Assembly (NCBI RefSeq): GCF_000691865.1
Contig: NZ_JMIO01000014.1
Location: 1-59,611 of the forward strand
Origin: Methanoculleus sp. MH98A
GTDB lineage: Archaea > Halobacteriota > Methanomicrobia > Methanomicrobiales > Methanoculleaceae
Direction: 5' to 3'
Length of the DNA stretch: 59,611 bases
The stretch's first letter is position 1, and each line of letters opens with the position of its first letter. The notes under the pieces are model-generated. The model searched no databases, was not told where the DNA came from, and saw only the letters and a list, made by a program, of their open reading frames with translations. Positions 43,701 through 47,450 of the stretch are shown here, in pieces. The translations under genes were made by a program, and so were the position numbers.

Positions 43701-43777
43701 CTTTTTTCCCCTAACACCGGTCGCCAGTCGAAAATGCTTCGCATTTTCTCCAGCTCCTGCTGGGCGCTTATGCGCCC
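43701..43777. repeat. T run plus three tandem mini-hairpins between convergent genes
   Basis: After a T run come three perfect hairpins in a row: GAAAATGC/GCATTTTC (43730-43748, loop TTC), CCAGC/GCTGG (43750-43763) and GGGCGC/GCGCCC (43762-43777, loop TTAT). The third overlaps the last codons and stop of the DUF169 gene. The cluster probably ends transcription from both sides and looks like the mini-hairpin DNA at the right edge of the window. Confidence 0.65.
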
Positions 43778-44541
43778 ACCAGTCGCGGGTTACTCCGGTC
43801 TATCTTCTTCATCACCTTCTCCCAGGTGCCCGTGATGAGGAAACTCTCCTCCATGAAGCCGACCATCTTCGTAAACTTCTTCATGGGAAAAGCCATCGTC
43901 AGGACGTCCGGCGGGACGCAGGGGCGTGCCGAGGGGTCGAACATCCCGAGGACCGCTCGTGGGTTCTCGTTCTGCTGCTCGAGCCACGGGAAGTAAAAGA
44001 CCGAGCTGCACCCGGCGCCGAAGGGAGCGATGACGCCGTTCGGGTCGGCCCGGTCGAAGTTTGCAAGCGTGAAGAGACCGGAGAGCACCTCCGGCCGGGC
44101 GAAGAAGACGACGGCGTCCGGGTTGTCGGCCTCCGTGAGGTTGTCCCAGCGCTTGAAGACGATCTCCTTGCCCTTCGTCGGAATCCGGGTGGTCCCCCGG
44201 TCGAGTTTGTCGACGATCTCCGGCGTCTGCTTGTAGCGCTCCCCCTCCATCTCGCCGGGCTTTCCGTAGGAGAGGAAGTAGCGGAAGTCGGGGAACCGTT
44301 CGGCGTCGTAGCCGAGGTAGAACCTTCCCCCGCGGCACCCGATGGAGTCTTCGGAGAAGGCGAGGCTTTTGCCGTTCCGTACCTTCGTAAGGTCGCAGAC
44401 GAAGCACCTCCAGCCTTTCGGGGCGGGGGCCTTCTCCACACCGTCGGTCGGACCCCCGACCTCGAAGGCGATCGGGAGGTCCGTCCCCGGGAAGTAGTTC
44501 TCGTGGAGCCGGATGTAGGCGTCGCGCAGTGCTGTGTCCAT
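43768..44541 (-). CDS. DUF169 family protein
   Basis: 257 residues, ATG at 44541 about 26 bases after a tattaatccc box. The protein has the hallmarks of DUF169: an N-terminal IRLHENYFPGTDLPIAFEV, a cysteine-bearing segment (KGWRCFVCDLTKVRNGKSLAFSEDSIGCRGG), PDAVVFFARPEVLSGL, APFGAGCSSVFYFPW and a terminal MAFPMKKFTKMV. Conserved cysteines suggest a metal or cofactor site. The role of the family is unknown, though members are frequent in methanogens and other anaerobes. It is cytosolic. Its stop lies inside the mini-hairpin cluster. Confidence 0.85.
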   Translation of the reverse strand: MDTALRDAYIRLHENYFPGTDLPIAFEVGGPTDGVEKAPAPKGWRCFVCDLTKVRNGKSLAFSEDSIGCRGGRFYLGYDAERFPDFRYFLSYGKPGEMEGERYKQTPEIVDKLDRGTTRIPTKGKEIVFKRWDNLTEADNPDAVVFFARPEVLSGLFTLANFDRADPNGVIAPFGAGCSSVFYFPWLEQQNENPRAVLGMFDPSARPCVPPDVLTMAFPMKKFTKMVGFMEESFLITGTWEKVMKKIDRSNPRLVGA

Positions 44542-44710: not shown

Positions 44711-44738
44711 TATATATTGTCAACCTTTGACTGTTGAC
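44711..44738 (+). promoter_or_regulatory. TATA box and inverted repeat before the HTH operon
   Basis: A tatatatt box (44710-44718) precedes the ATG at 44741 by about 26 bases, so the transcript is probably leaderless. GTCAAC (44719-44724) and GTTGAC (44733-44738) form an inverted repeat spanning the predicted start of transcription; a shorter GTCAA-N3-TTGAC is nested in it. It is a candidate operator for the HTH protein it precedes. Confidence 0.5.
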
Positions 44739-44740
44739 GC

Positions 44741-45187
44741 ATGCCTCTCCCCTTAAACGACAGGCAGTTTGCGTTCTGGAAACTCCGCCGCGGCGGTCTT
44801 GTAAACATCCAGATCGCGGACCGCTTCCGCATATCCCGCCAGGCGGTCTCGAAGGCGCTGCTTGCCATGGACCGCAAGGTCGAGGAGACGCTTCTCGAGA
44901 TGGCGCAGGCGAACCAGATCGAGGTCGAGCGCCTGAATGCTGAGATCGGCGTTCTCTTCGGGCGCTCCGTCCCCTTCAATGCGGCTGCGATCGTCTTCGT
45001 CTCGGCGGATCACGGGGTGCAGGTCTGGTACGAGCACGAGGGCGACTGCGGCACATGCCCCCGGTACGCCCGGTGCATCGAGCTCCTCTGGGGCTACGCG
45101 GACGAACTGGGGATCACGCTTGAAAAGACCGACGATCCGACACGGTTGGCCGACGAACTCTTTGCGAAACTCCGGGAGATGATATGA
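44741..45187 (+). CDS. HTH regulator with C-terminal cysteine motif
   Basis: 148 residues. Residues 5-45 form a helix-turn-helix (LNDRQFAFWKLRRGGLVNIQIADRFRISRQAVSKAL), similar in style to Tfx/LuxR-type domains of methanogens. The C-terminal half contains CGTCPRYARCIELLWGYADELG, a cysteine trio that may bind metal. It is probably an autoregulator acting at the inverted repeat 44719-44738. Its stop overlaps the start of a DUF1673-like gene, so regulator and membrane proteins are made together. Confidence 0.75.
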   Translation: MPLPLNDRQFAFWKLRRGGLVNIQIADRFRISRQAVSKALLAMDRKVEETLLEMAQANQIEVERLNAEIGVLFGRSVPFNAAAIVFVSADHGVQVWYEHEGDCGTCPRYARCIELLWGYADELGITLEKTDDPTRLADELFAKLREMI

Positions 45188-45789
45188 TGCCTCTTATGGA
45201 GACGATACGGGCGTATCTCGGATGGTGCCCCCTGCAGGCGTCGATGCGGACGGATCTCAAGGTGCATCCGTCGACGGCCGTAGCGGCGGGCGGGCGTGAC
45301 TGCGTCCCCCGGACCGAACCCGGGTGGTGGAGCCGCCACCACAACCAGCTGCTCGTCGCGGCAATAGCCTTCTCCGCGGCGGCAGCGGCGCTCTTTATCC
45401 TGTTCGAGGATGCTTCAGGGCACCTCGCCATGTGGACGGGTCTTGCCGTCGGGGTAGGGGCGCTCCTCGGCTCTCTGCTCAGTTACCGCTCCCGGTATGC
45501 GCGGGTTGCCGCCGGCGAGTTCCACAGGGACAACATGACCCGGAGACAGCGCATTGTTCAGTACCTGAGAGCGCCGGTGATCTCCGTTCTCGTCGTCGCC
45601 GGTATGGCGTATCTTGTTCTGGGCGGGATGTTCGACCGGATTCTCGGGCTCATGCTGGGCATGTGTCTCATCTGCTGGACCTGGTACGGCCTCACGATCC
45701 TCTGGGAGCGCCGGCACCGGGCGATCATGATCGCGGAGTGGGGGTCGGTGTATACCGTGGATGCGGCAACAGAGGGTGAACGCGTATGA
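45184..45789 (+). CDS. DUF1673-like membrane protein
   Basis: 201 residues. The opening ETIRAYLGWCPL matches the start of the methanogen family DUF1673. Two pairs of hydrophobic segments follow (about 55-73 and 80-97; 130-147 and 150-170), separated by a basic stretch (SRYARVAAGEFHRDNMTRRQRIVQYLR). The end is cytosolic and acidic. Function is unknown. It overlaps both the HTH gene upstream and its paralogue downstream by a few bases, so all three form one operon. Confidence 0.68.
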   Translation: MMPLMETIRAYLGWCPLQASMRTDLKVHPSTAVAAGGRDCVPRTEPGWWSRHHNQLLVAAIAFSAAAAALFILFEDASGHLAMWTGLAVGVGALLGSLLSYRSRYARVAAGEFHRDNMTRRQRIVQYLRAPVISVLVVAGMAYLVLGGMFDRILGLMLGMCLICWTWYGLTILWERRHRAIMIAEWGSVYTVDAATEGERV

Positions 45790-46529
45790 TGAAGTTCTCC
45801 GAGACGATACGGAGATGGATGGGCTGGTGCCCGAACGCCGCCGCTGCCGGAGCCTGCCGGCGGCGGTATGCCGCGCCGGACGATGAGATTGGGCTCGGGA
45901 CGGCGGCAGACGACAGCCGGGAGGTGGTGGAGGACGTGTTCGTGGAGTATACCAGTCCTCGCTTCTTTGTGCTGATGCCGTTTGCCGTCCTCGTTTTCCT
46001 CCTCCTCTTCGTGATATCCGTCCTGATCCCCTCCCTGTGGCCGGGGCTCATCTTTACCTTCATGGCTGTTTCCCTTCTGGCGTGGGCCGCATGGCGCATC
46101 TACTTCGATCCCTATCGAGCCGTGATAAAATTCTCCGGGAACTCCGTCATCGTCCGGAGACCGCGTTCCCGGCCCCTCGTCTTTGGAAAAGATACGGTAA
46201 GGTCGGTCGAGGTGAAACGACCCTACCTCTCTATACCCCGCTGGGCGTCCGCACTGCTCCTGGTACTCATGACTGCAGCGATATTCTTTGCCGGCGTAGG
46301 GAACTGGTTGATGCGCTATTTCGGCGACCAGGCCTTCAACCCCTATTTCGGCTTTCAGATTCTCCTGGCGGTCGGCTGGATGGCATTCATGCTGGAGTTG
46401 CTCTATCGTGGCCTGGTCAGCCTGCGGTATCCCGGCCGCGTCTGGGTGAGGCTGGAGCCCGCCGGGTTCCTCAACATCTACGCGGACGACCCGGAGAGGG
46501 TTGCCGCGCTGCTCGGTTCCCCGCAATGA
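45786..46529 (+). CDS. DUF1673-like membrane protein, paralogue
   Basis: 247 residues, start ATG at 45786 overlapping the previous stop. It opens with SETIRRWMGWCPNA, the same signature as its neighbour, followed by a cysteine-containing linker. Two helix pairs (about 62-80 and 85-102; 156-176 and 192-215) flank a soluble beta-rich stretch (YRAVIKFSGNSVIVRRPRSRPLVFGKDTVRSVEVKRPYL), which resembles a PH-like fold and is missing from the shorter paralogue. Probably a membrane partner of it; function unknown. Confidence 0.68.
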   Translation: MMKFSETIRRWMGWCPNAAAAGACRRRYAAPDDEIGLGTAADDSREVVEDVFVEYTSPRFFVLMPFAVLVFLLLFVISVLIPSLWPGLIFTFMAVSLLAWAAWRIYFDPYRAVIKFSGNSVIVRRPRSRPLVFGKDTVRSVEVKRPYLSIPRWASALLLVLMTAAIFFAGVGNWLMRYFGDQAFNPYFGFQILLAVGWMAFMLELLYRGLVSLRYPGRVWVRLEPAGFLNIYADDPERVAALLGSPQ

Positions 46530-46631: not shown

Positions 46632-47450
46632 ATGACCGATAGTTCCGCCGGCGCTCACCCACCTTCCCCGCCGCTCGTCGAGTTCCGAAACGTCAGCGTC
46701 GTCCGGGACGGCCACAGACTCCTCGACTCTGTATCGCTCACGATCCGCGAGGGGGAGCATATCGCCATCCTCGGCCCGAACGGTGCCGGGAAGTCGTCGC
46801 TCATCCGCGCGATCACCCGCGAGTACTACCCCTCCTCGCCGGGCCCGGACGTCACGTTCCGGTTCCGGGGGCGGGAGACCTGGGACGCCTTCGATCTTCG
46901 GTCGCACATCGGGCTTGTCTCCGGCGACCTCCAGCACACCTTCACCCGGAGCATATCGGGCCGCGAGGTCGTGCTCTCGGGGTTCTTCTCGAGCGTCGGG
47001 CTCTTCCTCTCCCACGAAGTCACCTCTGCGATGGAGCACAAGACCGACGAGATCCTCGAGTTCCTCGAGGTCGCCCACCTCGCCGACCGCCCGATGACGG
47101 AGATCTCCTCTGGCGAGGCACGCAGGCTCCTGATCGGGCGGGCGCTTGTCCACGACCCCGGCACCCTCGTCCTCGACGAGCCCACGAACAGCCTTGATTT
47201 GCACGCGCTCCACACCTTCCGTAAGACGCTCCGAAAGATCGCACGATCGGGCACCGGCATTATCCTGGTGACCCACAACCTCCACGACATCATCCCCGAG
47301 ATCTCCCGCGTCGTCCTGATGCGGGACGGCGCCGTCAGGATGGACGGCAAGAAGGCGGAAGTCCTGACCGATGGGGCCGTCGGTGACCTCTTCCGCGTCC
47401 CGGTCCGCGTCCGGGAGGAGGACGGCTACTACTACGCAACGGGATACTGA
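46632..47450 (+). CDS. ABC transporter ATP-binding protein without adjacent permease
   Basis: 272 residues. Walker A GPNGAGKSS, signature EISSGEARRL (an altered LSGGQ), Walker B TLVLDEPTN and the switch His in LVTHNLHD are all present. The overall form recalls ModF/YnjD-like ATPases. No membrane or binding-protein gene adjoins, so it is an orphan subunit or acts on a non-transport target. It lies about 100 bases after the DUF1673 operon on the same strand; a functional link with those membrane proteins is possible but unsupported. Confidence 0.85.
   Translation: MTDSSAGAHPPSPPLVEFRNVSVVRDGHRLLDSVSLTIREGEHIAILGPNGAGKSSLIRAITREYYPSSPGPDVTFRFRGRETWDAFDLRSHIGLVSGDLQHTFTRSISGREVVLSGFFSSVGLFLSHEVTSAMEHKTDEILEFLEVAHLADRPMTEISSGEARRLLIGRALVHDPGTLVLDEPTNSLDLHALHTFRKTLRKIARSGTGIILVTHNLHDIIPEISRVVLMRDGAVRMDGKKAEVLTDGAVGDLFRVPVRVREEDGYYYATGY

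Follow-up and report, generated by a model that had tools for sequence, protein, structure and literature searches.

The MGWCP motif of the archaeal protein family DUF1673 (arCOG06827) and the expansion of this family in Methanosarcina were recorded in 2014 (PMC4158269, Table 2), and a DUF1673/arCOG06827 supercluster has been recorded as well (PMC4390880). The accessible portions of these two papers name no regulator, operator or operon for DUF1673, and family and motif have so far been unexplained ‘dark matter’ of archaeal genomes. Two described regulatory systems come close to the locus presented here. In Bacillus subtilis, SdpI sequesters the autorepressor SdpR at the membrane (PMC1626106). 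EnfR, of the Tfx/EnfR family of regulators (TIGR00721; PDB 8hno, 8hnp), forms a dimer, recognizes a pseudo-palindrome near a start codon and has been described as a putative repressor (PMC10570040).

In this study we analyzed a locus of Methanoculleus sp. MH98A in which a helix-turn-helix (HTH) regulator gene is followed by two membrane protein genes, A and B. Both belong to the DUF1673/arCOG06827 ‘MGWCP motif’ membrane proteins; here, however, the motif is a tag that also occurs on non-DUF1673 bodies and is tied to one regulator. As in the SdpR/SdpI system, a putative HTH autorepressor shares its operon with polytopic membrane proteins, and 17 tagged bodies are SdpI-like. At loci such as L082 the HTH regulator gene is indeed followed by an SdpI-family protein, but at 44741-46529 the bodies are DUF1673. 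Unlike SdpR/SdpI, our regulator is Tfx-like with a His-Cys3 motif, there are many bodies with a common tag, sequestration is a prediction and no toxin gene was identified here. With Tfx/EnfR the regulator, as modelled, shares an HTH, a long helix and an alpha+beta C-terminal domain, with weak similarity over residues 5-98, but it has a His-Cys3 motif of its own and scores far below the TIGR00721 cut-off. From sequence and by analogy we slightly favour a self-regulated operon whose autorepressor would be held at the membrane by the tagged proteins, as SdpI does with SdpR. While the MGWCP motif and the DUF1673 expansion were already known, the DUF1673-linked regulator, its operator, the modular tag and their co-variation are apparently new: in the accessible portions of the open-licence literature we found no earlier report of them.

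The operon in Methanoculleus sp. MH98A

The window, by which we mean the whole stretch of 59,611 nucleotides that was analyzed, holds the following features of the operon:

44711..44717, + strand: TATA box TATATAT of the operon promoter (from sequence; a TATA-like element lies at the same place in the consensus)
44719..44738, no strand: palindromic operator GTCAAC-CTTTGACT-GTTGAC, directly 3' of the TATA box and 2 nt before the HTH start codon
44741..45187, + strand: HTH regulator gene, 148 aa (ORF call), distant relative of Tfx/EnfR
44831..44857, + strand: recognition helix ISRQAVSKA (residues 31-39), which reads ITRQGVSQA in the clade with the other operator
45035..45076, + strand: H99-x3-C103-x2-C106-x5-C112, probable metal or Fe-S site (from conservation)
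45174..45182, + strand: Shine-Dalgarno-like GGGAGATGA upstream of gene A (sequence, by eye)
45184..45789, + strand: gene A, tagged membrane protein, DUF1673, about 4 TM segments (PF07895 E 6e-12; hydropathy)
45184..45231, + strand: N-terminal tag of gene A, MMPLMETIRAYLGWCP, common to array proteins
45772..45779, + strand: Shine-Dalgarno-like GAGGGTGA upstream of gene B (sequence, by eye)
45786..46529, + strand: gene B, tagged membrane protein, DUF1673-like, about 4 TM segments (PF07895 E 2.5e-8; hydropathy)
45786..45836, + strand: N-terminal tag of gene B, MMKFSETIRRWMGWCPN, sole MGWCPN coding match in the assembly

The first-pass annotation, made from the sequence alone, had read the HTH gene and the two membrane genes as one operon, and in our analysis the three ORFs proved to be real and to overlap start to stop. 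It had called the membrane proteins paralogous; gene A (46.3 bits) and gene B (34.5 bits) both lie above the Pfam gathering cut-off for DUF1673 (PF07895, 30.4 bits), and both open with ETIR..(L/M)GWCP. The middle segment of gene B looks beta-rich, and gene B was grouped, via its close relatives, with the gene-B type body cluster described below. The array is flanked by a divergent DUF169 gene upstream (43768-44541) and an ABC ATPase gene downstream (46632-47450). This pair flanks the array in most Methanoculleus-type loci, which looks like genus-level synteny, and because it hardly recurs outside such loci we did not count the two genes as parts of the system.

Linkage of the regulator and DUF1673 across genomes

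The system is found in Methanomicrobiales, Methanosarcinales and ANME-2/Methanoperedens. In a sample of 150 genomes at the level of the order, the regulator was present in 59 and DUF1673 in 47; in a sample of 393 genomes at the level of the phylum the numbers were 72 and 56. The latter divides into 54 genomes with both, 2 with DUF1673 only, 18 with the regulator only and 319 with neither (Fisher p = 5e-48, a descriptive value and not a test, as the genomes are related). Linkage of the regulator and the membrane genes elsewhere had been chosen beforehand as the point on which the first-pass reading could fail, and it held: of 150 DUF1673 matches taken from the 393-genome sample, 148 have a regulator gene less than 5 kb upstream in the same orientation. 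One of the other two is in G442, a genome in which we found no regulator; the second, in G251, has an internal stop. The earlier reading is thus supported. Its two DUF1673 proteins are members of a larger modular array, and the three-gene operon is a short version of the system. One regulator locus, L252, lies on a contig labelled Caldiserica bacterium UBA646; its regulator groups with ANME-2 sequences, and the label is probably a binning error. The regulator loci were pooled and exact duplicates removed, giving 155 distinct loci.

The regulator protein

The regulator carries an almost invariant H-x3-C-x2-C-x5-C motif, with all cysteines at 155/155 loci and the histidine at 153/155. A CxxC-x4-C-like motif had been proposed for it; a cysteine motif is present, but its spacing is C-x2-C-x5-C (C103, C106, C112), with H99 ahead of it. 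The site might bind zinc or an Fe-S cluster. The Pfam scan placed the regulator in no family above its cut-off, and the best matches at the His-Cys3 region, far below the cut-off, were Fe-S domains of NuoG (E 0.08) and FeFe hydrogenase (E 0.21). Both the invariance of the motif and these faint matches would suit a cytoplasmic redox or metal sensor that releases itself from the DNA via His-Cys3, with the membrane proteins as downstream effectors outside the signalling. However, such a sensor leaves unexplained why unrelated bodies carry a common, regulator-matched tag with a conserved cysteine (see below), and we consider it quite improbable.

With an alignment of 50 sequences, AlphaFold2 modelled the regulator at a mean pLDDT of 88 (without an alignment the model was poor, pLDDT 47); the predicted fold is an HTH, a long helix and then an alpha+beta C-terminal domain. 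Against the Tfx family the regulator scored 16.6 bits (E 0.0053) with a cut-off of 60.25 bits, and we therefore did not file it as a Tfx member. Profile-profile comparison with bona fide Tfx by hhalign gave E 1.3e-4 and a probability of 53% over residues 5-98. A Foldseek search of the model against the PDB returned no significant match; for EnfR (8hno/8hnp) the probability was 0.75-0.89, but the TM-score was 0.29-0.39 and E > 0.1. True Tfx proteins are present elsewhere in the same genomes.

Promoter and operator

An inverted repeat right before the HTH gene had been noted and taken for the operon's own palindromic operator. The palindrome at 44719-44738, 2 nt upstream of the start, is that repeat, and its conservation bears the idea out. 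GTCAAC-N8-GTTGAC has one perfect copy in the whole 2.54 Mb assembly. Over the 155 loci the consensus is GT(C/A)AA(C/T)-N8-(G/A)TT(G/T)AC, with the regulator starting 2-3 nt after it; the degenerate palindrome was found at 154/155 regulator loci, in 148/155 with exactly 2 nt between it and the start codon. It is not a chance occurrence, as it precedes 150/154 HTH starts versus 0/434 internal array gene starts (counted over related loci). The consensus of 133 lineage-1 and 13 lineage-2 loci has a TATA-like element in the corresponding position (for the lineages see below). The palindrome thus stands between TATA box and start codon, keeps a fixed distance and is specific to the regulator gene. 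This position supports autorepression well, because the operator would sit over the expected transcription start. As no Shine-Dalgarno sequence is visible before the regulator gene at this locus, its mRNA is probably leaderless.

Membrane protein arrays and their tag

Behind the regulator lie between 1 and 12 tandem membrane genes, and our script called 440 tagged proteins at the 155 loci. At 13 of these loci it called none, the causes being, where discernible, contig ends, degraded genes or tag variants. The array proteins have only the N-terminal tag in common, which ends in GWCP (402 of 440) or a variant of it (GLCR 18, GLCP 8, the remainder other variants). Since the script demands the cysteine and is thus circular for this residue, we also ran a body-first search without the cysteine rule, and found a Cys tag upstream in 565 of 598 ORFs with a body homologue. 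Many of the other 33 look frameshifted, truncated or like untagged relatives; Cys or tag has been lost, for example, in body ORFs at L258 (GWFP) and at L161/L232, which counts against our preferred reading of the tag as a docking peptide. In 11 whole genomes 28/28 MGWCPN coding matches lie at arrays, one of them in a degraded gene about 130 nt past the called array end, and there were 0 control matches.

The tagged bodies form 18 clusters of two or more members, with names based on the Pfam matches of one or two scanned members per cluster: DUF1673 proper (157 proteins), gene-B type (92), DUF6159/GPDPase-membrane type (46), SdpI type (17; the single scanned member matched PF13630 at 8e-17 and PF07853 at 1e-12), Yip1 type (2), two clusters with weak AglB-core matches (9 and 3) and others that are unnamed. 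By sequence, the bodies behind the tag are otherwise unrelated and the tag is separable from the body.

Tandem arrays of 1-12 genes, unrelated bodies behind one opening and the Gly-rich linkers of some bodies might also suggest that the tag is a by-product of array growth, that is, a 5' recombination or gene-conversion segment for the capture of bodies, without a protein function. However, synonymous sites in the tag vary (Gly codons GGC/GGA/GGG/GGT = 126/65/32/19), so that it is conserved as protein. As G, W, C and P are nevertheless retained in several archaeal families, selection on the tag at the protein level is needed, which makes a by-product very hard to believe.

A protein function other than docking to the regulator must be weighed as well. 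Every array member is a membrane protein, and most arrays carry several different bodies. The tag resembles a short amphipathic helix with GWCP behind it and lies well ahead of the first TM segment (start at residue 61, median). Hence it might be an assembly or membrane-targeting motif that joins the bodies in a common complex, each regulator lineage having its own complex and the regulator just controlling the operon. Against this, the tag is kept in single-gene arrays (44/155 loci, some of them cut by contig ends), its type tracks the regulator type across several body families, and the regulator residues that change with it surround the regulator's Cys site, as detailed in the next section. 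We regard a motif of this kind as rather unlikely, and infer docking of the tag to the regulator.

Some further peculiarities of the arrays were observed. A 127-nt gap follows the first 6-TM tagged gene in L064, L066, L068, L071, L076, L077 and L078. The regulators at L169 and L178 are distant ones (~40% identity), and the membrane proteins behind them begin with FCRIPPDG or LCKIPPDG, which may be a third type of tag. We decided against interpreting the tag as a heme-regulatory (Cys-Pro) motif, since Cys-Arg is found in 18 of the 26 lineage-2 tags.

Co-variation of regulator, operator and tag

The lineage-2 regulators, from 13 loci, form one clade (support 100/99), in which the recognition helix reads ITRQGVSQA as opposed to (I/V)S(R/K)QAVS elsewhere. 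All 13 of their operators are of the form GTAAAT/ATTTAC or GTAAAC/ATTTAC, and their array proteins carry a GLC or VLC tag in 26/26 cases, with W-C or R-C in 413/414 lineage-1 tags. Because this clade arose once, the co-variation of operator and recognition helix amounts to one event only, and the link between tag and regulator is the stronger of the two by sequence comparison. In the DUF6159/GPDPase-membrane family the body tree requires at least three switches of array type, and the tag matches the type of the regulator (24/24 and 22/22) and not the body. Two further body families, each represented by a single protein in lineage-2 arrays, show GLC there as well. Such matching of tag and array could also come about by recombination that inserts new bodies behind the resident tag. 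The regulator residues by which the lineages differ are mostly located in the recognition helix (32, 35, 38) and in the surroundings of the Cys site (84, 108, 115, 116), and R108 is replaced by E108 alongside basic residues after the cysteine of the tag. This switch and the placement of the residues suggest a contact between regulator and tag.

Proposed mechanism

Comparison of sequences establishes the linkage, the operator, the tag, its modularity and the co-variation, and on this basis we propose the following mechanism. A Tfx-like, cysteine-bearing HTH repressor would bind the palindrome between TATA box and start codon and shut off its own operon, which consists of the repressor and one or more tagged membrane proteins. 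The tag, predicted to be cytoplasmic from its net positive charge only, would be a docking peptide for the C-terminal domain of the repressor, near the His-Cys3 site. Upon a membrane signal, which might be redox, an antimicrobial peptide or stress on lipids or the envelope, the bodies would expose the tag; the repressor would then be retained there, and synthesis of the tagged membrane proteins would rise. The logic would be that of SdpR/SdpI, to which the SdpI-type bodies point, with interchangeable receptor bodies. More tentatively, and with less than even confidence, we suggest that one repressor reads many unrelated membrane receptors via a repressor-specific plug-in docking tag, and that new bodies join by acquiring this tag. 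The pattern suggests that membrane sensing or protection works here on a plug-in principle, with the tag linking every membrane protein to its switch, possibly a natural case of receptors made interchangeable by a short peptide. Now that it is tied to a single regulator, operator and tag, DUF1673 has a testable function, and the family is expanded in Methanosarcina, where genetic tools exist.

Operator sites in other contexts

An asymmetric form of the operator, GTCAAC-N6-ATGTTTAC, has 15 matches in 12 Methanosarcinales genomes. Twelve of these are at the regulator start, one per genome (including the regulator of G324, which has an internal stop), 2 are at remnants of a second regulator and 1 is unexplained. 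The palindrome is also present ahead of untagged Yip1-like (PF04893) and DUF4013 (PF13197) membrane genes in four Methanoregula-type genomes, so that not every operator-bearing gene has the tag, which likewise counts against the preferred reading; judging from these sites, the regulon may be wider than the tagged arrays. Untagged membrane genes with the operator palindrome were seen at loci L200, L202, L203, L205 and L201. In a Methanosarcinales genome, an operator-like palindrome lies at G418:C2:1633425-1633444, away from any regulator found.
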